A DNA stretch of 64,000 nucleotides from Streptococcus pantholopis (lineage in GTDB: Bacteria; Bacillota; Bacilli; Lactobacillales; Streptococcaceae), in assembly GCF_001642085.1 (NCBI RefSeq), contig NZ_CP014699.1, positions 806,001 through 870,000 on the forward strand, in the 5' to 3' direction. Every line of letters begins with the position of its first letter. The first letter of the stretch is position 1. Both the position numbers and the translations under genes were made by a program. The notes beneath the pieces were generated by a model. That model ran no database searches. It saw only the letters and a program-made list of their open reading frames with translations, and had not been told where the DNA came from. Of this stretch, positions 3,579 to 60,149 are shown piece after piece.

Positions 3579-3592
3579 GAAAAAAGTGTAGG

Positions 3593-3760
3593 CCGTGTTC
3601 AGTTCCAACAAGATACAGAGGCCGTTAAAAACGTAAAAGGAAAATGGCGGTAAGCTAGAAATCTCTGATTTCGTCTGCGCACCCCTGCCAGAAGAGTGCG
3701 GGCGGCCGCAGGACGACAAAGCCTTCAGACGTTTACGGCTGGCGGTAACTCGGTAACGAT
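3593..3760 (-). repeat. Dispersed linker plus companion element, minus orientation
   Basis: Read on the minus strand, this stretch has the companion element (CTTCTGGCAGGGGTGCGCAG, then GAAATC-aga-GATTTC, then TAGCTTACCGCC) and ends in the linker CGGCCTCTGTATCTTG...GAACTGAACACGGCC. The same parts occur near 48.0, 53.5 and 59.7 kb. Here there is one linker, no full hairpin cassette between linkers, and the order of the companion parts is altered. No gene follows its linker end directly; it faces the terminator of the surface protein gene. The rest of 3419-3983 holds no supported gene; an 85-codon frame at 3696-3953 lies largely within the repeat. Confidence 0.75.
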
Positions 3761-3983
3761 ACAGTCTTCCAGCCCCTCACTCTCCAATTTTCAAGTTCGG
3801 GCTGAACGCATCTGCTGGCTGATGTCCTCCCCGGCTTTTAAGGAGCATGCTCAGTTTTGTTTTTGGTTAAAGTGTATTTTACTAGCTTTTTTACCAGTTT
3901 CAGGAACAAATTTTTTTGCCAGTCGCTTTTTTTTCGTTTTGGTGATAAAATAAAAAAGGAAAAAATGATTAAAGAGATTAAAG

Positions 3984-18394: not shown

Positions 18395-18431
18395 ACTGCC
18401 CTTTTGTATCTTAAATGGAGGTGATGATAAA

Positions 18432-23529: not shown

Positions 23530-23680
23530 AGGTTTTGAATAAAACTGACCTAAGACAGCAGGGGAGCTTGGCTCGTAATCTTCCTGCCGAGGCACAAAAC
23601 GTCATTAATGAATAACGTATTTGTACTTTCGTGTCTAGGTTTAGGTGCGATTTTTTTGTGCCTAGCCCAAAAATAAAAAC
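23530..23680 (+). ncRNA. Ribosomal protein L10 leader
   Basis: About 160 untranslated bases lie between the promoter and rplJ. They contain the features of the Firmicutes L10 leader: an early GC-rich stem (GCAGGGGAGCTTGG ... TTCCTGC) and a later stem near GTGTCTAGG...TGCCTAG with a T-run at 23650-23658 inside it. In Bacillus this leader binds the L10(L12)4 complex and feeds back on rplJ-rplL expression. Exact pairing was not computed. Confidence 0.75.
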
Positions 23681-36365: not shown

Positions 36366-36402
36366 GCGGCCTTTGTATCTTATGAACTGAACACGGCCTA
36401 AG
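36366..36402 (+). repeat. Single linker of the dispersed hairpin-cassette family
   Basis: CGGCCTTTGTATCTTATG, then AACTGAACACGGCCTAAG: one copy of the linker that separates hairpin cassettes at 48, 54 and 60 kb, without a cassette. It lies inside the redox operon, before the NmrA-like gene. Just upstream GACAGtCg/GgCTGTC can form a weak hairpin. Confidence 0.7.
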
Positions 36403-37919: not shown

Positions 37920-38477
37920 ATGGATATTTTCCAAAGAATGCATCAGGGAGAATGGATTAACCGTTTGACTGATGAAGACTATAAGACGGTTGCGGCTGAA
38001 GAAATGGCCAGAAGCCGGAAACTCTGTTTTCAGCTCAATCAGACCCCGCCGGGTGATTCAAATGAGCGTCAGCTATTAGATCAATTATTTGAGGGAAGGC
38101 TGCCGTCCACTTCAACTATTTTAACGCCTATGCAGATTGACCGCGCCAAAACCATGACAATTGGCGAACATGTCTTTATCAATCATGGTTTAACCTGTAT
38201 GAGTTCAGGCGGCATAACCATAGAAGATAATGTTATGATTGGTCCTGAAGCTGCGCTTATTACAGCCAATCATGATTTCCAAAACTTAGATGTTCTGCAG
38301 TTTAAACCTATTCACATTAAAAAAGGTGCTTGGATTGGAGCTAGGAGCATTATTTTACCAGGAGTGACCGTAGGTGAGGAAAGTGTTGTAGCTTCTGGTG
38401 CAGTAGTGACCAAAGATGTTCCTGCTAAAACGATTGTAGGCGGCAGCCCTGCTAAAAAAATTAAAATGGTTGATTAA
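37920..38477 (+). CDS. Maltose/galactoside O-acetyltransferase-like protein
   Basis: A 185-aa left-handed beta-helix acetyltransferase. It begins with the mac domain (MHQGEWINRLTDEDY...RSRKLCFQLNQT); hexapeptide repeats run from about 75 to the end, with NHGLTCMSSGGITIEDNVMIG and the catalytic His in TANHDFQ. The last coil is VVASGAVVTKDVPAKTIVGG. Acetylates sugars or related molecules from acetyl-CoA. 26 bp after the SDR gene. Confidence 0.9.
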   Translation: MDIFQRMHQGEWINRLTDEDYKTVAAEEMARSRKLCFQLNQTPPGDSNERQLLDQLFEGRLPSTSTILTPMQIDRAKTMTIGEHVFINHGLTCMSSGGITIEDNVMIGPEAALITANHDFQNLDVLQFKPIHIKKGAWIGARSIILPGVTVGEESVVASGAVVTKDVPAKTIVGGSPAKKIKMVD

Positions 38478-38520
38478 AAGAACAGCTACATTTGATATCA
38501 TAAAGAAAGTAGGTAGTGCT

Positions 38521-39480
38521 ATGACAAAGCGGAGGTTAGGAAAAAATCTCGAAGTGTCTTCTATTGGTTTTGGGATTATGGGGATGGATCACGCTTATGG
38601 TGCGCCAAAAGACAGAAAAGAAATGATAAAGCTGATTCATCAGGCATTTGACTTGGGTTGTTATTTTTTTGATACGGCTCCTGTTTATGGTGTGGCTAAT
38701 GAAATCCTGCTTGGTCAGGCTATAAAGGGGCACCCAGATGCTGTTATTGCCACTAAATTCGGGATTATCGGAATGACAGCTGTTAATGGTCTTATTAAGC
38801 AGGAATTTAACAGTTCACCTGAATCCATCAGACGGCAGGTTGAAGATTCCTTACGTCGTTTGGAGGTAGAGAGTATTGATCTGTATTATCAGCATCGTAT
38901 CGATCCTGCTGTCGAACCTGAAATCGTTGCTGATACCATGGGACAGCTAATTAAAGAGGGTAAAATCAAACATTGGGGAACGTCTAACGCTCCAATTGAT
39001 TATGTCAGAAGAGCGCATGCCATCACCCCGATAACAGCGATGGAGAACCAATACTCAATGGTCTACAGAAGCCCGGAAAAAGATGTGTTTCCTCTTTGTG
39101 AGGAGCTGGGAATCGGCTTTGTAGCTTACAGTCCGCTGGGGAATGGTTTTTTATCTGGTAGATATAGTGCAGAGACAGTATTTGAAGATGGGGATTTTCG
39201 AAATACAATGGGACGGTTTAAGGCTGAAGTTATTGCCAAAAATCAAGTATTGTTAGATTTCTTAAAGGATTTTGCCGGTCAGAAACATCTGACTCCTGCC
39301 CAGCTTGTTTTAGCTTGGGAATTGGGACAGAAAAACTACATTGTCCCTATTCCGGGAACAACAAAAAGTTATCGGCTGAAAGAAAATTTAGCTACTATGT
39401 CAGTTCAATTGACTGATGCTGAAATGGCAGAAATTAATCAAGCTTTAGATACTTTTGAAATTGATGAAACACATTTTTAA
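38521..39480 (+). CDS. Aldo/keto reductase
   Basis: A 319-aa reductase of another subfamily than the one at 33.3 kb. Tetrad: Asp/Tyr in FFDTAPVYG, Lys in VIATKFG, His in LYYQHRID. SPLGNGFLSGRY and IVPIPGTTKSYRL are the cofactor-binding end. ATG 38521 is preferred over the in-frame TTG 38470 that overlaps the acetyltransferase. Last gene of the six-gene LysR-linked operon. Confidence 0.92.
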   Translation: MTKRRLGKNLEVSSIGFGIMGMDHAYGAPKDRKEMIKLIHQAFDLGCYFFDTAPVYGVANEILLGQAIKGHPDAVIATKFGIIGMTAVNGLIKQEFNSSPESIRRQVEDSLRRLEVESIDLYYQHRIDPAVEPEIVADTMGQLIKEGKIKHWGTSNAPIDYVRRAHAITPITAMENQYSMVYRSPEKDVFPLCEELGIGFVAYSPLGNGFLSGRYSAETVFEDGDFRNTMGRFKAEVIAKNQVLLDFLKDFAGQKHLTPAQLVLAWELGQKNYIVPIPGTTKSYRLKENLATMSVQLTDAEMAEINQALDTFEIDETHF

Positions 39481-39579
39481 ATCAGAAAGTGAAACAACCT
39501 TATAACATTGGGGTGCCTATCACACTGCTTATCAGTCCTAAGTGTTTGTAGGCTTTGTATTTTTAGTAAAAAAGAGTGA

Positions 39580-40671
39580 TTATGATAGAATTGCTGAAAA
39601 ATCAAATTTAAGGATTCGGTCGACAAGGACAATATTCCAATTGTCACGGTAGGCTGATGCGGAAGATTCAAATAAGGCATAAAGTCTGTTTCCGTCTGCC
39701 CAAGTCTGTTCCAGATAAGGAGGGGCCGCTACTTTTAGGAGGGTCTCTCCCTCTTTTAAATGATTGAGTTTGTCCAGTCCGGGGTTTTTGTAAATCAGGA
39801 ACTGCGAATCTGTTTTGCCGTAAGATTGAGAAAAGATGATTTTATCCTTATAAAAAGCAATACCCTGTACTTTTTTGGGGATAGAGATGGTTTTGGCTGC
39901 ACGACTGGTCTCATAGCTGTCTAGGTCGGTTTCAAGGGGCAGACCCTCGCTGTCTAAATTATAATAGCTAAGGTGGCCGGCTTTTTGTTTGTCAAAATAG
40001 CCGACAAACAGCTTATTTTGGTAAAGTGTCATAAAAGAAGAACGCTTGATACCAGCTAAGTCAAACTTATATTCATAAGGAAGTGTTTTCTGGTTTTTAT
40101 CAAAATCATACTGCTTTATATCTGCCAGCGACAGAGCCGCCACAACTGAATGGCTCCAGCCTTTTTCAGTACTGGTAAGCCAGAGCCGCTGATGATTGGC
40201 ATCATAAGCCAAACCACCGACATGGTCTGTTCCTTCGAGGACAATTGTTTTGACAAATTTACGATTGCTCTTGTTAATAATCCAAAGAACAGAGTGAAAG
40301 GTTTTACTTTTACTGTAAGCTGAAATAATCAGATAGTCTTTTGTGACTGTTAAACCTTGGGGTGTCATATCAAGCGCATAGCCGATTTTTCCCTTTTTTT
40401 TGCCTGCAGCATAAATATTTTTGGATCTGATAAGGCCGGGTACAGCATAACTGCGGGGTTTATCAGGGCTGAGGAAAGGAGTGAGCTGAGGGTAATGAGT
40501 GTTTAGTTCATTTAAAAATGACTCGGAACTTTGAATCGCCGAATCCACATTGGTACCATTTTTGATTTTTAAATCCTGAAGTTCCAATACAAAATAATTC
40601 TGATAAAGATAATAGCCGGCTGCAGATAAGAGGAAAAGAGCTATGGTTAAAGTAATCAGTTTTTTCTTCAT
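39580..40671 (-). CDS. Membrane-anchored beta-propeller-like protein
   Basis: A 363-aa protein with one N-terminal membrane segment (MKKKLITLTIALFLLSAAGYYLY) and a large outside part. Repeats of the form YLIISAYSKS, HVGGLAYDANHQRLWLTS, NKLFVGYFDK and QGIAFYKDKIIFSQS point to a beta-propeller. No catalytic residues were recognised. ATG 40671 with GAGAGG upstream is preferred to TTG 40698. The 39481-39579 gap contains a degraded trace of the dispersed linker (GGCTTTGTAT at 39551). Confidence 0.7.
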   Translation of the reverse strand: MKKKLITLTIALFLLSAAGYYLYQNYFVLELQDLKIKNGTNVDSAIQSSESFLNELNTHYPQLTPFLSPDKPRSYAVPGLIRSKNIYAAGKKKGKIGYALDMTPQGLTVTKDYLIISAYSKSKTFHSVLWIINKSNRKFVKTIVLEGTDHVGGLAYDANHQRLWLTSTEKGWSHSVVAALSLADIKQYDFDKNQKTLPYEYKFDLAGIKRSSFMTLYQNKLFVGYFDKQKAGHLSYYNLDSEGLPLETDLDSYETSRAAKTISIPKKVQGIAFYKDKIIFSQSYGKTDSQFLIYKNPGLDKLNHLKEGETLLKVAAPPYLEQTWADGNRLYALFESSASAYRDNWNIVLVDRILKFDFSAILS

Positions 40672-40826
40672 AAACAATTGCCTCTCTGTTTCCTGCAAAA
40701 TGGTTTTTAGTGCATAAGCATTAAAAGACAGTCTTTCTTTTAATGCAATAATAAGATGAGCTTGTAAGAAGCAGCGATGCTTTTTAAAAGTGGGGCGGCT
40801 TTCTCTGTTAAAATGAGCAGCATAAA

Positions 40827-42005
40827 TTAATTTTTTTCATTATGATGATGGCGCATCTCTTTAAGGAATTTTTGACGGGGGTTAGGATGTGGGATGTTGT
40901 TCCGTTCTCGTGCTTTTTTTCGAGCAAGTAATATGATACGAGACATCCAATAATTTAAAATAACCAAAAACAAGCTAATTAAGGGGAGATGTGACCTAAA
41001 GACAACCATCAGACTACAGCAGATAACGATTGTTAAAGTCGAGTACAGAATGGTTTCTTTTTTCAGCCTGTAAAGCGGTTTATTATAGTAGTTGGTCAGT
41101 CCAACTCCCAAATAGTAGAGAATGATAGCTGAAAGTAGAAAAGTTAAACCATGAGCCCTATGTTGGGTGTCAGCTAGAAATTCCATGCCAATTGTAAAAA
41201 AATTAACCCCTATAATAATGATAATATGGGCATAAAGCAAAAAACCTCCTGAAGCATTTTGATGGTGTTCAAGGTTTAAATAAGTTTGAGACATATAGAC
41301 CATGAAAGCCAAAGACATACCGAGAAAGAACAGGATACCAGTAATTGGTACCTGCATCATTGGATAATGATTGACAATAGCTATGGCCGCCTCTCCAAAG
41401 GTTAAAATAGTCAGGAGCTGTGCCCTTTCTACTAGATGAGGAAAATTGGTGCGGAGTTTTCCGCTTTGCGGCTGATTGAAAAAAGGCAGTATGATAGGAA
41501 TCAGATAGATAAAAGACATAGTAATAGGATTGGCTGGCAGAAACTGAAAAACAAAAGGAAGGACACTGAGGGCATAAATAAGATTGTTGGCAATGCTCCT
41601 TTTGATTTCCTTATCAAAACCGAGCAGTCGTCCTTTAAGGGTATACTGCAAAGCGATGACAGCATATATTCCAAAAAGCAAAGCATTAAAGATAGTGACT
41701 TGATTCGCCGTAATCGTTTCAACCTCAAAATCAAAATATAAGGAGAGATTGCCGATGAAGTACATGAGCGGAATGATAGTGTAAATGTCAATCCTTCGCG
41801 CATCTCCGTATTGATTGAAGAAATAGACTTCATTGATCCAAATGCTTAATAGGATAATATTGGTAAAAATAAAAGAAATGACAGACGAAGCGGTCAGATG
41901 CTGGACATGGTAGAGATTGCCGTTTAACTGCCCCATAGCAATAACAAAAGCTAAATCGAAAAAAAGCTCATAATTAGAAACCCGTTTGGCTTTAATAGAA
42001 ACCAT
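40827..42005 (-). CDS. LtrA-family membrane protein
   Basis: A 392-aa protein with about ten membrane segments. The N-terminal KRVSNYELFFDLAFVIAMGQL is the hallmark of the low-temperature-requirement A (LtrA) family, named from a Listeria gene needed for growth in the cold; LLTILTFGEAAIAIV is a second conserved element. Biochemical function is not established. Alone on its transcript as far as can be seen. Confidence 0.88.
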   Translation of the reverse strand: MVSIKAKRVSNYELFFDLAFVIAMGQLNGNLYHVQHLTASSVISFIFTNIILLSIWINEVYFFNQYGDARRIDIYTIIPLMYFIGNLSLYFDFEVETITANQVTIFNALLFGIYAVIALQYTLKGRLLGFDKEIKRSIANNLIYALSVLPFVFQFLPANPITMSFIYLIPIILPFFNQPQSGKLRTNFPHLVERAQLLTILTFGEAAIAIVNHYPMMQVPITGILFFLGMSLAFMVYMSQTYLNLEHHQNASGGFLLYAHIIIIIGVNFFTIGMEFLADTQHRAHGLTFLLSAIILYYLGVGLTNYYNKPLYRLKKETILYSTLTIVICCSLMVVFRSHLPLISLFLVILNYWMSRIILLARKKARERNNIPHPNPRQKFLKEMRHHHNEKN

Positions 42006-42174
42006 CCTTGCCCTCCTCTGAAATAAGATATAAAATCATTTTGGTTTAAAATATTATACAGGAGTTTTTGGCAATTTTCAATGCAGCAGCACTCGAGCTG
42101 ATCTGCCCAAGAGAAGATGGAATTGTTATCTTAAACGGGCAGTCAAAAAAGGATGGCTCTTTGGCTGTTCTTTT

Positions 42175-43074
42175 TTAGACCGGCTCAATTCTCTTAAGCA
42201 GATTCTCTGCAGTCGTTGAAGGAAGAATGCGGATACGTTTGAGAGAAAGTAAGCCGTCGTCTGAGGAAGCTAGGCCTTCATTGGTTGTGATGCCCAGTTT
42301 GTAGGAGTGAGCAGCCTTATCGAGCGTCAGCTGACTATATTTTCCGGAAGGGTAGGCAATTGCAATGGTATCTTGAGAGAGTGCTTGGTCAAGATAGGTT
42401 TTAGCTTCGGTCAGTTCACTGGATTGTTTTTCCGGGCTACTGTCAGCCAGATTAGGATGGCTGACAGTATGAGATTGAAAGGACATACCGTTTTCTTTCA
42501 TTTCCAGCATTTGTTCCACAGTTAAACTGGCAGGATATTCTTTAGCGACATAATCTGTGATGACATTATTTGTTGCTCTAGCTTGATACTTTTTCAAGAT
42601 GGGATAGGCAACAGTATAAAAATCAGCATTGCCGTCATCAAAGGTCAGCCAGACAATTTTTTTATTATTATTAGGCAGACTGTTTTCTGTCAGAGCTTTA
42701 TGAACTTCTTCCGGACTTAAAAAATAGTAGCCCTTTTCTGAGAGCTGTTTAATATGCTCTTCAAAGACCTCAGGATCAACAATCAAATTGGCATTGGCTG
42801 CCTCAGATGCATCCATGACATGAACGGCATGGTACATTAAAATGGGAAGAGCAATTTTTTCCGCCTGAGGGACCCAGTTGGCAGTAGATTTTTCCTTGTC
42901 TGCCTTTTGTTCTGTTGTATTTTCAGAAACAGTATAGCTGCTGGAAGCTGATGAATCTTTTGGCTGATTGCTGAACTTTTGTGTTTTAAGAGTAAAAATC
43001 AGCATAGCAAAAGCAAAGCAGCAAAGACTGATTAAGATGATATTGAGAACAAACCATATCTTCTTTTTTTCCAT
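42175..43074 (-). CDS. Membrane-anchored polysaccharide deacetylase
   Basis: A 299-aa NodB-fold (carbohydrate esterase 4) enzyme. One N-terminal membrane segment (about 5-28) is followed by a Ser/Thr/Lys-rich linker and the catalytic domain: LPILMYHAVH, WLTFDDGNADF (catalytic and metal Asp), SHTVSHP (metal-binding His pair) and IAYPSGKYS. It should act outside the cell on an N-acetylated polymer, peptidoglycan or a poly-GlcNAc-type glycan. ATG 43074 has AAGGAG in front; the longer frame from 43092 is less likely. Confidence 0.9.
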   Translation of the reverse strand: MEKKKIWFVLNIILISLCCFAFAMLIFTLKTQKFSNQPKDSSASSSYTVSENTTEQKADKEKSTANWVPQAEKIALPILMYHAVHVMDASEAANANLIVDPEVFEEHIKQLSEKGYYFLSPEEVHKALTENSLPNNNKKIVWLTFDDGNADFYTVAYPILKKYQARATNNVITDYVAKEYPASLTVEQMLEMKENGMSFQSHTVSHPNLADSSPEKQSSELTEAKTYLDQALSQDTIAIAYPSGKYSQLTLDKAAHSYKLGITTNEGLASSDDGLLSLKRIRILPSTTAENLLKRIEPV

Positions 43075-47262: not shown

Positions 47263-47823
47263 ATGATAAATCAAGAAAAAGTGGAAGAAGCTATCTACCA
47301 GCTGCTGCAGGCTTTAGGCGAAAATCCTGAGCGTGAAGGGCTATCAGAAACACCAAGACGTGTTGCTAAAATGTATCAAGAAGTATTTGCAGGGATAAAT
47401 GAAGATCCTAAAAACCAATTTACAGCTGTTTTTGCTGAAGATCATGAGGAAATCGTTATGGTTAAGGATATCCCTTTTTACTCAATGTGCGAACATCACT
47501 TGCTTCCTTTTTACGGGACAGCTCATGTGGCTTATCTGCCTGAACAAGGGCGGATAACCGGTCTGAGTAAGCTGGCTCGGGCTGTAGAAATGGCTGGCAA
47601 GCGTCCCCAGCTTCAGGAGCGTATGACAGAGCAAATCGCTTCAGCCCTTGATGATGCGCTCCAGCCTCGAGGTGTTTTTGTCATGGTCGAAGCCGAGCAT
47701 CTGTGTATGAGCATGCGCGGGATTAAAAAGCCCGGCAGTAAGACAGTAACGTTAGCAGCAAGAGGCCTCTTTCAGGAGGATTTTCAAAAGCGCCAGGAAC
47801 TCCTTTCTCTAATGCGGCAGTAA
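47263..47823 (+). CDS. folE: GTP cyclohydrolase I
   Basis: Converts GTP to dihydroneopterin triphosphate, the first step of folate synthesis. 186 aa. [19 protein letters not shown] is the N-terminal conserved helix; zinc ligands are in [12 protein letters not shown] and the later [23 protein letters not shown] follows. The next gene, folP, lies 760 bp away behind repeat elements, where closely related genomes usually keep these genes adjacent. Confidence 0.96.
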
Positions 47824-47857
47824 ACTTTCTTTCGGACCTACCGTCAGCCGTAGCCGT

Positions 47858-47912
47858 CTGGGAGTGGGACAGAACTTTTGTCAAGTATAAAAAGTTCGTT
47901 GCCCCACCCCCG
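47858..47912 (+). terminator. Imperfect hairpin after folE
   Basis: GGGAGTGGGAC...ACTTTT pairs imperfectly with AAAAGT...TTGCCCCACCCCC. It resembles the GGGAC hairpins but lacks a T-run, so its role as a terminator is doubtful. 47913-48026 has only short repeats of ACTAG/TCTAG type. Confidence 0.4.
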
Positions 47913-48026
47913 CAAGGCCTAGTAGGCATTTTAAAGCTTTGAAAAAGCGACTAAAATGTCACTAGACGACTAGCGTTCTGAAAAAGACTAGAACTGATTT
48001 AAAAGTTAAAGCTTTTATTGCCCCTT

Positions 48027-48186
48027 TCTAGCCGTTCTGGCAGGGGTGCGCCTACGAAATCAAAGATTTCGGACTTACTGCCAGCCGTAGACGTCTGAAG
48101 GCATTGTCGTCTTAACAGCCGACCGCACCTTTCTAGCCGTTCTGGCAGGGGTGCGCAGACGAAATCAAAGATTTCTGGCTTACCGC
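48027..48186 (+). repeat. Two copies of the companion element
   Basis: CTAGCCGTTCTGGCAGGGGT starts at 48029 and 48134. Each copy goes on with GCGC-ACGAAATCAAAGATTTC, a perfect short hairpin, and ACTTACTGCC or GCTTACCGCC; the first also has AGCCGTAGACGTCTGAAGGC. The same element is found at 3.65 kb (minus), 53.46 kb and 59.70 kb, always next to linkers of the hairpin-cassette family. Confidence 0.85.
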
Positions 48187-48209
48187 CTTTTTGCTTTGCT
48201 CTTTTAAGG

Positions 48210-48568
48210 GGCTTTGTATCTTGATGAATTGAACACGCCCTAAACGCTGCGGGAAAAAGATGTCCTGACTTAGAATCTGGCGATTCGTCAGTCAGTCCCC
48301 TATTTTCCTTTTGCGTTTTATACGGGCTTTGTATCTTGATGAATTGAACGCGCCCTAAACGCTGCGGGAAAAAGATGTCCTGACTTAGAATCTGACGATT
48401 CGTCAGTCAGTCCCCCTATTTTCCTTTTGCGTTTTATACGGGCTTTGTATCTTGATGAATTGAACGCGCCCTAAACGCTGCGGGAAAAAGATGTCCTGAC
48501 TTAGAATCTGACGATTCGTCAGTCAGTCCCCTATTTTCCTTTTGCGTTTTATACGGGCTTTGTATCTT
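48210..48568 (+). repeat. Array of three 115-bp hairpin cassettes before folP (type D-D-D)
   Basis: Linkers (TTTGTATCTTGATGAATTGAAC) start at 48213, 48328 and 48444, and the last half-linker at 48559 runs straight into the folP ribosome site. The cassettes between them (48242-48318, 48357-48434, 48473-48549) are almost identical. Each can fold as a long hairpin: outer AAACGC/GCGTTT, constant GGAAAAAGAT / TATTTTCC, inner GAATC/GATTC. Units differ by single bases and one extra C, so the array grew by recent tandem duplication. Confidence 0.93.
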
Positions 48569-48583
48569 ATATGGAGTGTGGAG

Positions 48584-49396
48584 ATGAAAATTGGTTGTCA
48601 TAATGTTTCGGGTAACGCCTGTGTCATGGGAGTGTTAAATGTTACGCCGGATTCTTTTTCGGATGGCGGGAATTATTTGAATGTGGATTCAGCATTAAAG
48701 CAAGTTCGGAAAATGCTGGAGGCCGGTGCAGCAGTTATTGATGTCGGCGGTGAGTCTACACGGCCTAAAGCTGATTTTGTATCAGCAGATGAGGAGATGC
48801 GCCGTGTTTTGCCGATTATTAAAGCCATCAAAGAAAATTTTGACTGTCTAATCAGTATTGACAGCTATAAAAGCGAGACTGCTCAGGCTGCTTTAGAGGC
48901 CGGTGCCGATATTATAAATGATGTCTGGGCCGGTCTTTACGATGGGAATATGCTGACTTTGGCAGCTCAAAAAAATGTTCCTATTATGCTGATGCATAAT
49001 CAAAAAGAGGAAATATACAGCGATGTGACACAGGATGTCTGCCGCTTTTTATCTGAACGTGCCGAAGCTGCTTTAGCAGCCGGGGTCAGTAAGGAAAATA
49101 TTTGGCTTGATCCCGGTTTTGGTTTTGCAAAAAATGTTGAACAGAATCTTGAACTGCTGAAAGGTTTAGATCAAGTTTGTCAGCTCGGTTATCCGGTGCT
49201 GTTCGGCGTTTCCCGCAAGCGGTTTGTCGACTATCTTTTAGGCGGCCAAACCAAGCCTTCTGAACGGGACATGGCAACAGCTGGCCTTTCGGCCTGGGCT
49301 TTGCAAAAAGGCTGTCGTATGGTTCGGGTGCATAATGTGGAAGCCAACCGTGATATTGTTACTGCTATCAGCCAGCTGTCTCCTTTTAAGGAATAA
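48584..49396 (+). CDS. folP: Dihydropteroate synthase
   Basis: Joins p-aminobenzoate to the pterin diphosphate; target of sulfonamides. 270 aa, TIM barrel. VLNVTPDSFSDGG at the N-terminus, VIDVGGESTRPKA, DPGFGFAKNVEQN and FGVSRKRFVDYLL are the conserved pterin- and pABA-site motifs; RVHNVEANRDIV closes the family pattern. ATG 48584 follows TGGAGTGTGGAG. The hairpin-cassette array ends 16 bp before the start, so any transcript from folE must pass through it. Confidence 0.95.
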   Translation: MKIGCHNVSGNACVMGVLNVTPDSFSDGGNYLNVDSALKQVRKMLEAGAAVIDVGGESTRPKADFVSADEEMRRVLPIIKAIKENFDCLISIDSYKSETAQAALEAGADIINDVWAGLYDGNMLTLAAQKNVPIMLMHNQKEEIYSDVTQDVCRFLSERAEAALAAGVSKENIWLDPGFGFAKNVEQNLELLKGLDQVCQLGYPVLFGVSRKRFVDYLLGGQTKPSERDMATAGLSAWALQKGCRMVRVHNVEANRDIVTAISQLSPFKE

Positions 49397-49505
49397 AGAA
49401 GGATTGGCAATTAATGGATTTTAGCGGCTGTCTGAAGTCAGATAACGGTTTATTTGCTGTTTGATGAATTATGAAGACGTCAGCTGTTTAGTTTTGAAGA
49501 GGATT

Positions 49506-49868
49506 ATGGATAAAATATACTTGCAGGGTTGCCATTTTTATGGCTATCATGGCGCCCTCACTGAGGAACAAAAGCTGGGACAGATTTTTATTGTTGACTG
49601 CACACTGTCTCTTGACTTAGAAAAGGCTTCTCAAACAGACCGTCTGACAGATACTGTTCACTATGGTATGGTGTTTGACTGTCTTAAAAAACATGTTGAG
49701 AATGAAAAATACCAGCTTCTGGAAAAATTAGCCGGTGTTATTATTGCTGACATTTTTCGGCAGTTTTTGCCAGTTCAGACGATTAAACTGACAATACGTA
49801 AGAAGAATCCGCCGATTAACGGGCATTACTCAGCTGTCGGGATTGAATTGGAACGGAGCCGGACATGA
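49506..49868 (+). CDS. folB: Dihydroneopterin aldolase
   Basis: Cleaves dihydroneopterin to hydroxymethyl-dihydropterin and glycolaldehyde. 120 aa from ATG 49506. GCHFYGYHGALTEEQKLGQ holds the conserved Glu of the active site, and the C-terminal LTIRKKNPPINGH the pterin-binding part. GAGG lies only 3 bp before this ATG; the longer starts at 49461-49464 are possible. Its stop overlaps folK (ATGA). Confidence 0.93.
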   Translation: MDKIYLQGCHFYGYHGALTEEQKLGQIFIVDCTLSLDLEKASQTDRLTDTVHYGMVFDCLKKHVENEKYQLLEKLAGVIIADIFRQFLPVQTIKLTIRKKNPPINGHYSAVGIELERSRT

Positions 49869-50362
49869 CAAGTGTTTACTTAAGTTTAGGGAGCAATTTG
49901 GGAGAGCAAAAGTCCTATCTCTGCCGTGCTCTTGCAGCATTGGATGCTTTACCGCTTACGCAGGTGACTGCCTGCTCTTCCTTTTATGAAACTGCTCCTT
50001 GGGGGAAAACAGACCAGCCTGACTTTCTCAACCTCTGCTGTAAGCTTGAAACGGATTTGCCCCCTCAAGACCTGCTGCTATCTTGCCAAAAGATTGAAGA
50101 AGATTTGGGACGTGTACGCCATGAACACTGGGGTGCACGGACGATTGACATTGATCTGCTGCTATACGGGGAAGCCACAATTGCTCAAGACAATCTTCAG
50201 ATTCCCCATCCTTACATGACAGAACGGGCCTTTGTTCTGCTGCCTTTGGAAGAGATAGCTCCTTATCTGACTTTGGAAGGGGTTCCGCTTAAAGCTTATA
50301 TAAGCGGTTTGGACGTAACTGGAGTGAAAAAAATAAGTGATCAATCATGTGATAAAGGTTAG
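49865..50362 (+). CDS. folK: Hydroxymethyl-dihydropterin pyrophosphokinase
   Basis: Activates 6-hydroxymethyl-dihydropterin with ATP pyrophosphate for folP. 165 aa. VYLSLGSNLGEQKSYL at the start, FYETAPWGKTDQPDFLNLC and GARTIDIDLLLYG (metal-binding DxD) are the family motifs. It overlaps folB by 4 bp. Confidence 0.95.
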   Translation: MTSVYLSLGSNLGEQKSYLCRALAALDALPLTQVTACSSFYETAPWGKTDQPDFLNLCCKLETDLPPQDLLLSCQKIEEDLGRVRHEHWGARTIDIDLLLYGEATIAQDNLQIPHPYMTERAFVLLPLEEIAPYLTLEGVPLKAYISGLDVTGVKKISDQSCDKG

Positions 50363-50508
50363 CATTAACCAGTAAGACCGTTTTTTGCATGAAAAAAGAA
50401 TCTTGTAACTTATTTTTAGGCTGTATCCAAACAAGGTGTTTTTTGCTATAATGATAATCGGTGATAACCAATTTTATATCGCAGCAGAAAAGTACAGAAT
50501 TGAGAAAA

Positions 50509-51408
50509 ATGTTTGATTTTTTAGAGAATGAATTAAAAGGGATAGATATCCGTGTCAACGAACCTTTAAAAAAGTATACCTACACTGAAGTAGGCGGTCC
50601 GGCTGACTTTTTAGCCTTTCCACGCAACCGCTATGAATTATCCAGAGTGGTTAAATATGCCAATCATCAAGGTATTGACTGGATGGTTTTGGGAAATGCC
50701 AGCAATATTATTGTTCGTGATGGCGGTATTCGCGGCTTTGTCATTATGTTTGATAAATTAAATACGACAACAGTTGACGGTTATATCATTGAAGCAGAAG
50801 CAGGAGCGAATCTTATTGAAACCACCCGTGTTGCAAAATTTCACAGTTTAACAGGCTTTGAATTTGCCTGTGGCATTCCGGGAAGTGTCGGCGGTGCTGT
50901 ATTTATGAATGCCGGTGCTTATGGCGGTGAGATTGCCCATATCCTTCTGTCAGCTCAGGTCCTAACTAAAAACGGAGATGTCAGAACCATTGACAATCGG
51001 GATATGCGCTTTGGCTATCGGCGCTCAGCTGTTCAGGCCAGCGGAGAGGTTGTTATTTCGGCCAAGTTTGCTTTAAAACCCGGGGACTATACGCTGATCA
51101 GTCAGGAAATGGCCCGATTAACCCATTTGCGTGAATTGAAACAGCCCTTGGAGCACCCTTCCTGCGGTTCAGTTTTTAAACGGCCTTTAGGTTATTTTGC
51201 CGGTCAGCTGATTAGCGAAGCCGGCCTTAAAGGTCATAGAATCGGCGGTGTTGAAGTGAGTCGCAAACACGCTGGGTTTATGGTTAATGTCGCTGGGGGA
51301 ACTGCTCAGGACTACGAAGATTTGATTGCTGATGTCATTGAGAAAGTGGAAGCTCATTCAGGGGTCCGGCTGGAGCCGGAGGTAAGGATTATCGGTGAGA
51401 AAAAATAG
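50509..51408 (+). CDS. murB: UDP-N-acetylenolpyruvoylglucosamine reductase
   Basis: Reduces UDP-GlcNAc-enolpyruvate to UDP-MurNAc with NADPH and FAD. 299 aa. FAD-binding motifs [23 protein letters not shown] and [19 protein letters not shown]; catalytic Ser in [10 protein letters not shown] and the Glu region [11 protein letters not shown] at the end. It lacks the extra loop of type I enzymes, as in other Firmicutes. An extended -10 TGCTATAAT (50444-50452) lies upstream, so it may have its own promoter in addition to read-through from folK. Confidence 0.95.
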
Positions 51409-51439
51409 CAGTAAATTGTCTATGGAGGAACTGTGAGAC

Positions 51440-52582
51440 TTGACTGAACCAATCATTGCTTTTAAGAATGTCACAAAAGTATTTGAGGACAGCGAAACAG
51501 TTGTTTTAAAAAATATTAATTTTGAATTGGAAAAGGGGAAGTTTTACACACTGCTTGGGGCTTCAGGAAGCGGCAAATCAACCATTTTGAATATTATAGC
51601 TGGTTTACTGGATGTGACCAGCGGCGATGTTTATCTGGACGGCCGGAGGATTAATGATGTTCCTGTGCATAAGCGGGATGTTCATACTGTTTTTCAAAAT
51701 TACGCCCTCTTTCCGCATATGACAGTTTTTGAAAATGTTGCTTTTCCCTTGAAGCTCAAAAAATTGAATAAGCAGGAAATTGCCCAGCGTGTCCAAGAAG
51801 CGCTGGAGCTGGTTCGATTGGAGGGACTGGAAAAACGACGGATTCAAAAACTATCCGGCGGACAAAGGCAGCGCGTTGCCATCGCCCGAGCGATTATCAA
51901 CCGTCCTAAAGTTGTCCTTCTGGATGAGCCTCTTTCAGCTTTGGATTTACAGCTTCGGACGGAGATGCAGTATGAGCTTAGGACCCTGCAGCAGCGTCTG
52001 GGCATTACTTTTGTTTTTGTGACGCATGATCAGGAAGAGGCACTAGCTATGAGCGACTGGATTTTTGTCATGAATGATGGCGAAATCGTTCAGGCCGGCA
52101 GTCCTGTTGATATTTACGATGAGCCTATTAATCATTTTGTGGCAACTTTCATCGGTGAATCCAATATTTTGCCGGGAACGATGATTGCTGACTATTTGGT
52201 TGAATTTAACGGTAAGCGCTTTGAAGCAGTTGATGGCGGAATGGAGCCTCAGGAAGCAGTCGAAGTGGTTATTCGGCCGGAAGATTTACAGATTACCTTG
52301 CCCAAAGCAGGGAAACTTCAGGTCAGAGTTGATACTCAACTTTTTCGTGGCGTTCATTATGAAATTATTGCCCATGATGAATTGAATAATGAATGGCTGA
52401 TTCATTCCACCCGAAAGGCTATCGAAGGCGAAGTTATCGGTCTGGATTTTCGTCCGGAAGACATTCATATTATGCGGCTTAATGAAAGCAAGGCAGAATT
52501 TGAAGCTCGGATTGAAGAGTATGTCGATTTGGATGAACATGAAGAAGGATTGCTTAATGCCATTGCGAAAGGGGAAAAATGA
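51440..52582 (+). CDS. potA: Spermidine/putrescine ABC transporter, ATPase
   Basis: ATP-binding subunit of the PotABCD importer. 380 aa. Walker [10 protein letters not shown] (about 38-46), Q-loop [11 protein letters not shown], signature [10 protein letters not shown], Walker [13 protein letters not shown], and H-loop [13 protein letters not shown]. The C-terminal part (from about 240) is the TOBE-type regulatory domain. The start is TTG 51440, 11 bp after GGAGG; the expected [11 protein letters not shown] follows. Overlaps potB by 4 bp. Confidence 0.95.
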
Positions 52583-53382
52583 AAACACGCTTTAATCTTT
52601 TTTCTTTGCCCTATTTTCTCTGGCTTTTTCTTTTTGTTTTAACACCGCTGATTTTACTGGTTTATCAGTCTTTTTTTAATGTAGAGGGGCAGTTTACTCT
52701 AGCCAATTATCAAACCTTCTTTGGATCCTGGACTTATCTCAGAATGAGCCTGAATTCCATTTTATATGCTGCCCTGATTACCTGCGCAGCCTTGCTTATT
52801 TCTTATCCGACAGCCCTGATTTTAAGGAAATTGAAACATAAGCAGCTCTGGCTGATGCTGATTGTGCTGCCGACTTGGATTAATTTGCTGCTCAAAGCCT
52901 ATGCTTTTATGGGGATTTTTGGCCAGCAGGGAGCGGTCAATGACTTTTTGACCTTTATAGGCATCGGGCCTAAGCAGCTTCTTTTTACAGACTTTTCTTT
53001 TTTATTTGTTGCGACCTATATTGAAATTCCTTTTATGATATTGCCGATTTTTAATGCTCTGGATGCCATTGATCAGGATTTGCTGAATGCCAGCAGGGAT
53101 TTAGGAGCTGATGAGCTGCAGACCTTTCGAAACGTTATTTTACCGCTGTCCCTCAATGGTGTCAGAAGTGGGATTCAGTCTGTTTTTATTCCCAGCTTAA
53201 GTCTGTTTATGCTAACCAGACTGATTGGCGGAAACCGTGTTATTACTCTGGGAACGGCTATTGAACAGCATTTTCTGACAACACAAAACTGGGGAATGGG
53301 GGCAACTATCGGTCTTGTTTTAATTCTTGCCATGGCTGCTGTCATGTGGTTGACAAGTGAACATAAAACCAAATCTAGATGA
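52579..53382 (+). CDS. potB: Spermidine/putrescine ABC transporter, permease PotB
   Basis: Inner-membrane permease with six segments, 267 aa. The EAA loop, which contacts PotA, reads [22 protein letters not shown] typical N-terminal segment ([20 protein letters not shown]) is present. It overlaps potA but is separated from potC by 830 bp of repeats; in related genomes these two overlap or abut. Confidence 0.95.
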
Positions 53383-53456
53383 AACAGCTAGATGGTTCCC
53401 TTTCCCATGCCTGCCCCGGCCTTATACAAGAGGGAGTCGGTATTTTAACTGCCCGT

Positions 53457-53577
53457 CCTAGTCGTTCTGGTAGGGGTTCGCAGACGAAATCAGAGATTTC
53501 TGGCTTACCGCCAGCCGTAAACGTCTGAAAGCTTTGTTTCCTTGACAGTAGACCGCACCTTTCTAGTCGTTCTGGCA
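53457..53577 (+). repeat. Companion element next to the potB end, 1.2 copies
   Basis: CCTAGTCGTTCTGGTAGGGG..., GAAATC-aga-GATTTC, GGCTTACCGCCAGCCGTAAACG make one copy; a second start (CTAGTCGTTCTGGCA at 53563) breaks off and leads into the cassette array. The layout is the same as before folP. Confidence 0.85.
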
Positions 53578-53600
53578 TTTACTTTGCTCTTTTAACGGGT

Positions 53601-54188
53601 TTTGTATCTTGTGAATTGAACACGGGCTAAACGCTGTGAGAAAAAGATAGCCTTCTCTTGAGTCTTTAGTGACTCAGCGGTCAGGCTTCTATTTTCCTTT
53701 TGCGTTTTTTACGCCCTTTGTATCTTGTTGTAATTGAACACGCCCTAAAATCCTAGTGAAAAAGATGGCTGTCAGCGTGATGCCAGCATCACTTGCCATC
53801 CTCTATTTTCATACGGATTTTTAGACGGGCTTTGTATCTTGATGAACTGAACACGGGCTAAACGCTGTGAGAAAAAGATAGCCTTCTCTTGAGTCTTTAG
53901 TGACTCAGCGGTCAGGCTTCTATTTTCTCTTTGCGTTCTTAACGCCCTTTGTATCTTGTGTAATTGAACACGCCCTAAGAGCTGTGCAAAAAAGATAGCC
54001 TGTCCTAGAGCTTATCAGCTCTTCGTCCAGTCTCCTATTTTTGCTTTGCTCTTTTAACGGGTTTTGTATCTTGATGAACTGAACACGCCCTAAGAGCTGT
54101 GCAAAAAAGATAGCCTGTCCTAGAGCTTATCAGCTCTTCGTCCAGTCTCCTATTTTTGCTTTGCTCTTTTAACGGGCTTTGTATCTTG
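53601..54188 (+). repeat. Array of five hairpin cassettes between potB and potC (type A-B-A-C-C)
   Basis: TTTGTATCTT linkers start at 53601, 53717, 53831, 53948, 54063 and 54178, i.e. at 114-117 bp. Cassettes: A 53629-53707 and 53860-53938 (outer AAACGC/GCGTT, inner TGAGTC/GACTCA); B 53748-53820 (outer AAATCC/GGATTT, inner GTGATGC/GCATCAC); C 53977-54053 and 54092-54168 (outer AAGAGC/GCTCTT, inner AGAGC/GCTCT). All share AAAAAGAT on the left and TATTTT on the right. Stem sequences change while pairing is kept. The last linker runs into the potC leader. Confidence 0.93.
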
Positions 54189-54212
54189 TTTTTAGAAAGA
54201 AAAGAGAAGTGG

Positions 54213-54992
54213 ATGAAGAGAGTTGCGTTTGTTTATTTAGTTTTTGTTTTTCTTCTTCTTTATTTGCCTATTTTTTATTTGATTTTTTATTCTTTTAATC
54301 AAGCTGGTCATATGAATGGTTTTACCAGTTTTACTTGGGAACATTATCGGACATTGTTGGCTGATCAGCGTTTGCTTTTAATTCTGGTGCAGACTTTCTT
54401 TTTGGCTTTTCTGAGTTCTCTGCTGGCTACAGTTGTTGGAACATTTGGTGCTATGTTTATTTGGGAAAGACGGCAAAAATATGAGAGTGCTCTTCTGTCT
54501 TTCAATAATGTTTTGCTTGTTGCTCCTGATGTGATGATTGGTGCAGCTTTTTTGCTGCTTTTTACCCGTGTTGGTTTTACGCTCGGTCTGCTTTCGGTTT
54601 TATTAAGTCATGTTGCTTTTTCTATTCCCATAGTAGTATTGATGGTACTCCCTCGTTTGAAGGCCATGGATACTGATATGATTCGGGCGGCTTATGATTT
54701 AGGAGCGACTTCCTTGCAGATGCTTAAAGAAGTCATGCTGCCTTATTTGACTCCAAGTATTATAGCGGCTTATTTTATGGCTTTCACCTACTCTTTAGAT
54801 GATTTTGCCGTCACTTTTTTTGTGACGGGTAACAGTTTCTCAACTCTGTCAGTCGAAATTTATTCACGGGCTCGGCAGGGAATTTCTCTGGAAATTAATG
54901 CGCTCTCAGGCGTTGTCTTTCTTTTCAGTATTCTTTTGGTTATCGGCTATTATTATATCTCGCAGGAAAGAGCAGGTGATGGGGATGCGTAA
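54213..54992 (+). CDS. potC: Spermidine/putrescine ABC transporter, permease PotC
   Basis: Second permease, 259 aa, six segments. EAA loop: AAYDLGATSLQMLKEVMLPYLTP. ATG 54213 follows AAAGAGAAG and the N-terminal MKRVAFVYLVFVFLLLYLP is a proper first segment; the open frame further up (54156) is repeat DNA. It overlaps potD. Expression must come through or from the cassette array directly upstream. Confidence 0.95.
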   Translation: MKRVAFVYLVFVFLLLYLPIFYLIFYSFNQAGHMNGFTSFTWEHYRTLLADQRLLLILVQTFFLAFLSSLLATVVGTFGAMFIWERRQKYESALLSFNNVLLVAPDVMIGAAFLLLFTRVGFTLGLLSVLLSHVAFSIPIVVLMVLPRLKAMDTDMIRAAYDLGATSLQMLKEVMLPYLTPSIIAAYFMAFTYSLDDFAVTFFVTGNSFSTLSVEIYSRARQGISLEINALSGVVFLFSILLVIGYYYISQERAGDGDA

Positions 54993-56052
54993 ATTGTATT
55001 CTTTTCTCTTTGGTATCTGTGCAATTGTTTTTCTGCTCTGGTCACTCTCAGTCCTAATGCAAAAACAGTCTGGTTCTGCCGCAGATAAGCTGGTTATTTA
55101 TAATTGGGGTGATTATATTGATCCAGCTTTACTGACTGCTTTTACTGAAAGAACAGGGATAAAAGTGCAGTATGAAACATTTGATTCAAATGAAGCCATG
55201 TATACCAAAATAAAGCAAGGGGGAACGACTTACGATTTGGCAGTTCCCAGTGATTATATTATTGATAAGATGATAGATGAGGAGCTTCTGGTCAAATTGG
55301 ATAAAACTAAGCTTAAGGGGCTGGATAACATTGCTCCCGAGTTTTTAGGGAAGAGTTTTGACAAAACTAACGACTACTCCATTCCGTATTTTTGGGGAAC
55401 TGTGGGCATTGTTTATAATAAAAAACTTTTGGACAGTTATCCCCAGCATTGGAATGACTTGTGGCGTCAGGAGTATCGAAATCAGATTATGCTTGTGGAT
55501 GGCGCCCGGGAGGTTCTAGGTTTTAGCTTGAACAGTCTGGGTTACAGTCTGAATACGAAAAGAAGGGCAGAGCTGCAGGAAGCTGAAAAGCATCTGCAGG
55601 CTTTGGTGCCGAATATTAAAGCCATTGTTGGCGATGAAATGAAGACTTATATGATTCAGGAAGACAGTGCTATCGGTGTGACTTTTTCAGGAGAGGCCAG
55701 TGAAATGCTGGAGGCTAATGCTGATCTTGCCTATATTGTTCCCAGTGAAGGATCCAATTTATGGTTTGATAATTTTGTTATTCCTAAAACTGCTAAGCAC
55801 TATGATGAAGCCTATGCTTTTATCAATTTTATGCTGGAGCCGGAAAATGCGGCTCAGAATGCCCAGTACATTGGTTATTCAACCCCAAATTCGGCTGCTG
55901 AAGCACTTTTGCCGGAGGCTGTTAAAAATAATCCGGCTTTTTATCCCGATAAGTCCGTTTTGAATAATCTTGAGGTTTATGACAATCTAGGTTCTGACTG
56001 GCTGGGAATTTACAATGATTTCTATCTGCAGGTAAAAATGTACCGAAAATAA
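54985..56052 (+). CDS. potD: Spermidine/putrescine-binding protein
   Basis: Extracellular substrate-binding protein of the PotABCD importer. 355 aa from ATG 54985 (ATG 54979 gives two more residues). N-terminal hydrophobic segment KLYSFLFGICAIVFLLWSL without a lipobox, so it is probably an uncleaved membrane anchor. KLVIYNWGDYIDP opens the mature domain; TFDSNEAMYTKIKQGG, YFWGTVGIVYN and TFSGEASEML line the polyamine cleft. Overlaps potC by 8 bp. Confidence 0.94.
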   Translation: MRKLYSFLFGICAIVFLLWSLSVLMQKQSGSAADKLVIYNWGDYIDPALLTAFTERTGIKVQYETFDSNEAMYTKIKQGGTTYDLAVPSDYIIDKMIDEELLVKLDKTKLKGLDNIAPEFLGKSFDKTNDYSIPYFWGTVGIVYNKKLLDSYPQHWNDLWRQEYRNQIMLVDGAREVLGFSLNSLGYSLNTKRRAELQEAEKHLQALVPNIKAIVGDEMKTYMIQEDSAIGVTFSGEASEMLEANADLAYIVPSEGSNLWFDNFVIPKTAKHYDEAYAFINFMLEPENAAQNAQYIGYSTPNSAAEALLPEAVKNNPAFYPDKSVLNNLEVYDNLGSDWLGIYNDFYLQVKMYRK

Positions 56053-59610: not shown

Positions 59611-60149
59611 GCGGCCTCTGTATCCTGTGGATTGAACACGCTCTAAAATCCTAGTGAAAAAGATGGCATACATTATGTTTCTTGGTAATAGTGATTGATT
59701 AGACGCCGTAGCCGTCTTGGCAGAGGTGCGTCTGCGAAATCAAAGATTTCTGGCTTACCGTCATTTTTGCTTTGCTCTTTACACGGCCTTTGTATCTGTA
59801 TCTTGTTGAACTGAACACGGTCTAAAATCCTAGTGAAAAAGATGGCTGTCAACGTGATGCCAGCATCACTTGCCCTCCCCTATTTTCATACGGATTTTTA
59901 CACGGCCTTTGTATCTTGTTGGAATTGAACACGGCCTAAACGCTGCGGGAAAAAGATGTTCTGACTTAGAATCTGGTGATTCGTCAGTCAGTCCCCTATT
60001 TTCCTTTTGCGTTTTACACGGCCTTTGTATCTTGTTGGAATTGAACACGGCCTAAACGCTGCGGGAAAAAGATGTCCTGACTTAGAATCTGGCGATTCGT
60101 CAGTCAGTCCCCTATTTTCCTTTTGCGTTTTACACGGCCTTTGTATCTT
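59611..60149 (+). repeat. Cassette array before the esterase gene (degenerate B, companion element, B-D-D)
   Basis: A decayed linker and the left half of a B cassette (59611-59666) are cut by a companion element (59703-59760). Then follow a linker with a small duplication (TGTATCTGTATCTTG, 59791), cassette B (59825-59897), and two D cassettes (59938-60014, 60054-60130). Linkers start at 59908, 60024 and 60140. B equals the B of the pot array and D equals the D of the fol array except for a few bases, while the linkers here are of a local form (CGGCC...ACACGGCC). Confidence 0.92.

Follow-up and report, generated by a model that had tools for sequence, protein, structure and literature searches.

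The window, that is, the whole stretch of 64,000 nucleotides analysed here, covers positions 806001-870000 of a chromosome that is a single contig of 2,241,302 bp, placed in Streptococcus by the named relatives of its PotC, and carries a potABCD operon in which an array of hairpin-forming units separates potB from potC, as listed in Table 1. The identities of the four genes are supported by their best NCBIfam matches, three of which lie under the curated cut-off. The gap runs from the stop side of potB at 53382 to the start of potC at 54213, and five complete units together with the closing end of the last occupy 53601-54187, each linker start coinciding with the start of a unit in Table 1. 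A sequence-only reading had counted five units of 114-117 bp between the two genes, and sequence and repeat finding bear this out; the filters of the covariance-model list for the window retained three of the five, with units 2 and 4 dropped. The 218 bp that precede unit 1 contain, by eye, the same inner block as long units elsewhere, and the covariance model gave no full-unit match within them (53383-53600). The 3' end of potB is, on comparison by eye, unlike that of relatives, in which potB abuts or overlaps potC.

Table 1. Positions of the pot genes, of the array units and of further copies of the element in the window.
Feature	Position	Strand	Basis and remarks
potA, ATP-binding protein	51440..52582	+	start per ORF listing; NCBIfam TIGR01187 355.7 bits, cut-off 355.6
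potB, permease	52579..53382	+	best NCBIfam match PotB, 176 bits, below curated cut-off 348
decayed long-variant unit, 5' half gone	53383..53600	+	inner module GCAGACGAAATCAGAGATTTCTGGCTTACCGCCA...
unit 1, type AACGC, basal GGGC/GCCC, 116 bp	53601..53716	+	sequence, repeat finding, model match
unit 2, type AATCC, basal GCCC/GGGC, 114 bp	53717..53830	+	sequence, repeat finding; outside filtered model-match list
unit 3, type AACGC, basal GGGC/GCCC, 117 bp	53831..53947	+	sequence, repeat finding, model match
unit 4, type GAGC, basal GCCC/GGGT, 115 bp	53948..54062	+	sequence, repeat finding; outside filtered model-match list
unit 5, type GAGC, basal GCCC/GGGC, 115 bp	54063..54177	+	top model match of the window, 144.1 bits
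closing 3' end of unit 5, TTTGTATCTT	54178..54187	+	sequence, model match
Shine-Dalgarno-like AAAGAGAAG of potC	54201..54209	+	13 nt past closing end; sequence
potC, permease	54213..54992	+	best NCBIfam match PotC, 204.1 bits, below curated cut-off 326
potD, substrate-binding protein, start approximate	54976..56052	+	best NCBIfam match PotD, 284.4 bits, below curated cut-off 582
second array, 3 full units	48213..48568	+	ends just 5' of Shine-Dalgarno site/start of folP-like gene (named by eye)
third array, 1 long and 3 short units	59616..60149	+	ends 13 nt 5' of ATG (TATCTT-GTTGGAGGAG)
apparent hairpin-deleted remnant, TGCCC then TTTGTATCTT	18397..18412	+	directly 5' of Shine-Dalgarno site
partial copy, single end-to-start junction	36366..36400	+	5' of gene start
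partial copy with long module	3588..3900	-	

Among the further copies in the window, the second array has decayed long modules lying upstream of it, and the nearest relative (G130) carries an array at the place where the window has the hairpin-deleted remnant. A recurrent block was seen to swap for the apical part of some units, at L113:13870-14130, L114:7150-7420, L113:5655-6420 (minus strand) and in the partial copy on the minus strand of the window (3588-3900), with the palindrome GTGAAATCATCCAGTGGATGATTTCA at three of these four places, and this block may be another repeat nested in the element family. A tandem repeat of 303 bp in 7.4 copies, probably in a surface-protein gene, occupies 650-2946 of the window, and a matching repeat region is present in G130.

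In 38 of the 39 other genomes read at this place (29 of the 117 other genomes plus 10 more), potB either abuts or overlaps potC, and neither an insert nor a model match lies between them, in keeping with the earlier expectation that the two genes normally abut, from which it follows, as had also been reasoned, that the array must be either read through or supply its own promoter. The region 53300-54300 contains no promoter-like sites, against 1.1 expected in shuffles, and terminator-like sites show no excess in the array; a promoter or a terminator within the array was rejected as neither is in excess, and potC and potD are therefore probably expressed by read-through.

The five units exhibit three types of outer stem, AAACGC/GCGTT in units 1 and 3, AAATCC/GGATTT in unit 2 and AAGAGC/GCTCTT in units 4 and 5, and all the stems named in the sequence-only reading are present, including the inner TGAGTC/GACTCA, GTGATGC/GCATCAC and AGAGC/GCTCT. 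The basal GGGC/GCCC helix also covaries, its sides reading GGG-CCC, CCC-GGG, GGG-CCC, CCC-GGG and CCC-GGG in units 1 to 5, and a terminal helix is formed by the start GAACA and the end TGT-A-TC around a single bulged A. The description of a linker that alternates with cassettes had to be given up, as the linker is the paired tail of one element followed by the head of the next; one element spans approximately RTGAAYTGAACACG to TTTGTATCTT, about 115 bp. From the outside inwards its helices are the terminal helix with the bulged A, the basal helix of 4 bp, the type-specific helix of 5 bp and a helix rich in A whose internal mismatch is conserved; the apical part is variable and can accommodate an additional module of about 100 nt. 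The unit lengths fall into classes of about 115, 170-180, 210-230, 260 and >290 bp, the inner block being repeated at times. When folded singly, four of the five array units reach z scores of -2.7 to -3.3 against dinucleotide shuffles, and DNA folding of both strands of two units yields similar hairpins with z scores of -3.0 to -4.5.

To assess the covariation, 76 units taken from many genomes were aligned with MAFFT, no structure being supplied. Of the 1741 cells of the 23-pair structure, 98.2% are paired, compared with 82.8% in shuffles, none of the 500 shuffles reaching 98.2%, and when the partners were slid by one to three columns as a control at most 62.3% were paired. Changes on both sides were observed in 14 of the 23 pairs (260 cells). 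The aligned units were collected with a model that holds most of the tested structure, which gives some bias toward that structure, and the slid controls fall so far below the observed pairing that such a selection is an unlikely source of the covariation. The proposal that the cassettes are one folded family is upheld, the covariation staying strong on a genus-wide, structure-free alignment. The conserved mismatches, the bulged A and the blocks TGAACACG, AAAAAGAT, TATTTT and TTTGTATCTT persist throughout the genus. A subfamily adjacent to rpsO in other species, with the ends GAGCTC...TTAGCATC, retains the terminal helix and the bulged A with different letters (both by eye).

The array had been taken as a feature of the pot operon, and it turns out to be one copy among the very many of a dispersed family. 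The exact linker pattern occurs 278 times in the chromosome, 140 times forward and 138 times reverse, with 0 occurrences of a reversed-pattern control, and the 100 linkers listed of the 278 fall in 46 clusters, so that at least 46 places are occupied. A sample of 464 kb contains 139 units that make up 4.5% of its sequence, a share that overestimates the whole genome since the sample consists of the window and 20 stretches picked around arrays; 94 of these units belong to the 110-119 bp class, the remainder being mostly longer variants of 160-380 bp, and the number of complete units per site ranges from one to six or more. Only G130 (PotC 89% identical) among the 39 other genomes has an array between potB and potC, and its units are different, long ones included. 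This array of other units at the same place, together with the 278 exact linkers against none in the control, makes it unlikely that the array is an assembly artefact, an objection that had been raised in advance.

Streptococcal genomes were searched, as the sequence-only reading had suggested, with a covariance model made from 19 units at a match threshold of E up to 0.001, and 192 of the 197 Streptococcus genomes match. In the family-level draw of 245 genomes 187 match, all of them Streptococcus, with 0 matches in the nine other genera drawn from Streptococcaceae, and in the order-level draw of 198 genomes 35 match, 27 of them Streptococcus and eight of one other family; the genus, family and order scans score at most 14-17 candidates per genome, so that these match numbers are not copy numbers. 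The matches in the eight genomes outside Streptococcaceae (G343, G356, G459 and five more) are weak, with a best E of 3.3e-5 and nine in one genome, and are possibly distant relatives of the element; because of them the limit to the genus may not be sharp. Rfam gave no match over the array at the gathering score, and a single chance-level match (E 0.29) in 47800-54300. No description of the element was found among the matches listed in openly licensed full text, and it may be described elsewhere. The element represents a large, apparently unnamed dispersed family in nearly all sampled streptococcal species.

Differing contents at shared sites were observed by eye when syntenic gaps of this genome (G000) and G130 were compared, with L132:18453-18849 filled in G000 only and other sites filled in G130 only; sites can thus persist while units come and go. 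In G130:1371000-1379000 the gaps measure about 1.5 and 1.8 kb, one of them with array copies, and in the window at 38451-42225 they measure 222 and 83 bp. A clean empty site at which both boundaries could be read was looked for and not found, the potB-potC place being too diverged. The rpsO locus was rejected as an empty site since it swaps with other hairpin modules, and an ABC permease locus was rejected since its copies look decayed or hairpin-deleted. Differing hairpin modules were observed downstream of rpsO (L146-L175) in 30 genomes with closely similar rpsO, the element being present by a script rule in seven of the 30 loci, one of them hairpin-deleted, and other repeats in the rest, as if the modules had been swapped between relatives. 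As some sites look inherited, namely rpsO and an ABC permease locus, the current mobility of the element is something that we infer. The left and right flanks of first units share, by eye, no repeat that would represent a target-site duplication. The junction spacers of arrays sometimes copy the spacer that precedes the Shine-Dalgarno site, and the spacer GGTTTAA occurs at three junctions and in the flank of one array. A -10-like promoter lies directly 5' of 11 of the 27 first units, against 21% in the background, and no conclusion is drawn from this.

The position of the arrays relative to Shine-Dalgarno sites was recorded by a rule that requires, after the 3' end of the array, a Shine-Dalgarno-like core and then a start codon that opens a frame of 50 codons or more. 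The rule holds for 54 of the 63 array 3' ends in this genome, for 20 of the 24 in the G130 stretches and for 31 of the 87 in other genomes, compared with 1047 of 33,600 random positions (3.1%) and 4449 of 113,710 intergenic non-element positions x strands (3.9%), and these ends are not independent, the stretches having been picked around arrays and several of the other-genome ends representing one inherited site (rpsO, ABC permease). The set from other genomes at first held 95 ends including eight from G130, seven of them placed at a Shine-Dalgarno site, and was reduced to 87 when these were split off; the flank survey comprised 70 clusters, several of which are chance matches inside genes. 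Between TATCTT and the core there are mostly 3-7 nt, with a mode of 5 nt, and between TATCTT and the start codon mostly 13-20 nt, the potC copy representing the loose end of the range with its start codon 25 nt past the closing end. Copies were also observed inside operons, between potB and potC and 5' of tsf, dltC and atpD (genes named by eye). Among the nine misses in this genome, another unit comes next in two cases, an opposite stop codon lies near in two, and two show a Shine-Dalgarno site by eye (L117, L128). Another unit follows 13 of the 87 other-genome ends, and 43 are neither placed by the rule nor followed by a unit; 13 of these 43 lie at most 12 nt from the stop codon of an opposite-strand gene, and about four have a Shine-Dalgarno site by eye (L036, L037, L040, L222), L040 being counted among the 13 as well. 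This lineage shows a strong bias toward Shine-Dalgarno sites, the genus as a whole a partial one.

Such a position, with its sense orientation and tight spacing in this genome, in G130 and in the placed copies elsewhere, is what would be expected of a portable cis-acting leader RNA, the fold of which, 5' of the Shine-Dalgarno site, would control translation or a processing that separates the expression of cistrons, with selection keeping such copies. The intra-operon copies and the ability of AAGATA within the unit to pair with TATCTT at the unit end speak for the same explanation. Against it, many copies in other species do not lie 5' of a Shine-Dalgarno site and some lie antisense at gene ends, the number of units per site varies, no gene partner is fixed at potC and no Rfam match was obtained. 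The composition of the stems also bears on this explanation, since a fold seen by selection as RNA would be expected to show common G.U and rare A.C, and the stems of the element fail this expectation. Over all pairs, 29 of the 1741 cells hold G.T, 18 of these at a single pair, and 13 hold A.C, an excess that favours RNA somewhat (p 0.02), yet without the one wobble-rich pair the counts are 11 to 13 (p 0.84). The L10 ribosomal leader of the same genus, which served as the RNA control and is represented in the window at 23531-23665 (RF00557, 91.6 bits), shows 118 G.T and 0 A.C in 558 cells, in a set of 31 rows from 30 distinct loci, the leader of the window being entered twice, where many wobbles are fixed pairs. 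The difference in wobble between the element and the L10 leader has p 5.8e-9 over all pairs and p 2.9e-12 without the wobble-rich pair, values that serve as a guide and not as proof since the cells within each set are not independent. With these points on both sides, the leader RNA, the chief competitor of a mobile DNA element, is regarded as a rather unlikely explanation.

A constraint at the level of DNA fits the sequences better than one at the level of RNA, if indirectly. The sequence-only reading had held that the folded form matters, as RNA or as single-stranded DNA; the fold itself stands, and the few wobbles narrow the choice toward DNA. Stems with Watson-Crick pairs only could also stem from template switching between the arms of imperfect palindromes in an ordinary decaying repeat, by which covariation would arise without selection. 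The few wobble or mismatch intermediates on either strand would agree with this, and so would the apparent deletions of whole hairpins with the ends kept, which were observed at 18397-18412 of the window and, in relatives, at the loci of rpsO and of the permease, and which suggest pairing of the arms in DNA. Palindromic DNA loses its hairpins with the ends kept during replication. Template switching should nevertheless erase conserved mismatches, yet the mismatches, the bulged A and the sequence blocks are retained across the genus, and it leaves the spread of the element and its position at Shine-Dalgarno sites unexplained, so that it is considered improbable. An integron-like system, in which a tyrosine recombinase would join folded single-stranded sites in tandem at a fixed attachment site, resembles the element in its same-orientation arrays of unlike units, its bulged base in the folded site and some polarity of the arrays, but the many separate chromosomal sites with no single attachment site leave it very improbable.

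The element is probably, if far from certainly, a non-autonomous, BOX-like mobile DNA element with a bias of target or retention for Shine-Dalgarno sites, and it would be passively transcribed. Under this mobile-element reading, the folded DNA strand would be the form that an enzyme acting in trans recognises, moves or copies, and the element would land, or be tolerated only, directly 5' of an AGGAG-like sequence, which in intergenic DNA would usually be a Shine-Dalgarno site. Tandem duplication and the arrival of new units at the same place would lengthen the arrays while the older 5' units decay, which would explain unlike units with a common junction spacer and the 5' excess of long, older-looking units. 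Arrays co-transcribed in leaders and between cistrons would represent structured spacer RNA without a promoter of its own. Long variants were observed in 14 of the 37 first units compared with 5 of the 37 last units, and the 3'-most unit has the higher motif score in 15 arrays and the lower one in eight (p 0.025, exploratory), so that the polarity of the arrays is suggestive only. A more far-reaching form of this reading is rather unlikely: insertion would be aimed at the Shine-Dalgarno sequence itself and would rewire the leaders and intercistronic gaps of probably >100 genes per genome, growing polar arrays by means of an enzyme new to such elements.

Y1_Tnp, the only transposase family searched, is present in 77 of the 118 genomes, and among the 20 listed of the 41 genomes without it 19 have matches to the element. 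At L031 (G000:37663-38019) a single IS200-like Y1 transposase gene lies about 600 bp before an array; it was rejected as the source since Y1_Tnp is missing from genomes that carry the element.

REP sequences and REPINs with their RAYT transposases resemble the element in their many folded intergenic copies, which are likely moved in trans. They differ in that REP sequences are 20-40 bp long in the part of the source used (PMC3733652), with element units of about 115 bp, and in that no Y1 transposase is common to the element-bearing genomes; a RAYT-type Y1 transposase was not found, the single Y1_Tnp of G000 being IS200-like. As in MITEs, the element is short and non-coding, with paired ends and a high copy number, and it differs from them in that no parent insertion sequence was found, the transposase search covering Y1_Tnp, and that no target-site duplication was seen by eye. 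ERIC/IRU, STAR and SPRITE sequences are intergenic and structured, like the element. Within the part of PMC3049150 drawn upon they are likewise presented as intergenic and structured, and by description they are set apart from the element in size and placement; SPRITE resemble terminators, whereas the arrays of the element exhibit no terminator excess.

In build the element comes close to BOX of the pneumococcus, which in the sections of PMC3049150 used here comprises short dispersed streptococcal intergenic repeats with terminal inverted repeats and a middle module that is absent or repeated, a strong predicted fold and an orientation that mirrors coding bias. The element shares the modular build of ends and a variable inner module, and its covariance model matches no BOX sequence in the ten BOX loci examined. 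The sole exception is L244 around 1386-1560, where a BOX lies inside or directly beside a copy of the element family. When at most 2 mismatches were allowed, the boxA sequence (BOXA1R primer site) was found 0 times in G000 and G130, and 88 of the 197 Streptococcus genomes carry this primer sequence. Membership in BOX was rejected since the primer site is absent from G000 and G130 and the model does not match BOX in the ten loci. According to those sections, BOX, RUP and SPRITE are almost wholly missing from other streptococci except relatives of S. suis and are overrepresented between convergent genes (PMC3049150), whereas the element matches nearly all of the Streptococcus genomes searched and, in this genome, lies 5' of start codons. 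The known repeats covered in the parts consulted of PMC3049150, PMC2828477 and PMC2267715 are BOX, RUP and SPRITE, the BOX-type repeats of S. suis and the stem-loop families of 40 genomes, the table of which lists BOX, RUP and a family Stre-1 marked G for S. pneumoniae; the element is not described in those parts.

Matches to the family turn up in almost all species sampled from a genus that has been heavily studied, and Rfam contains no match to it. If the bias toward Shine-Dalgarno sites represents targeting, a mobile element would be making an unusual choice of site, one that leads directly to altered leaders and altered operon spacing. The mechanism can be tested, since close relatives differ at many sites.
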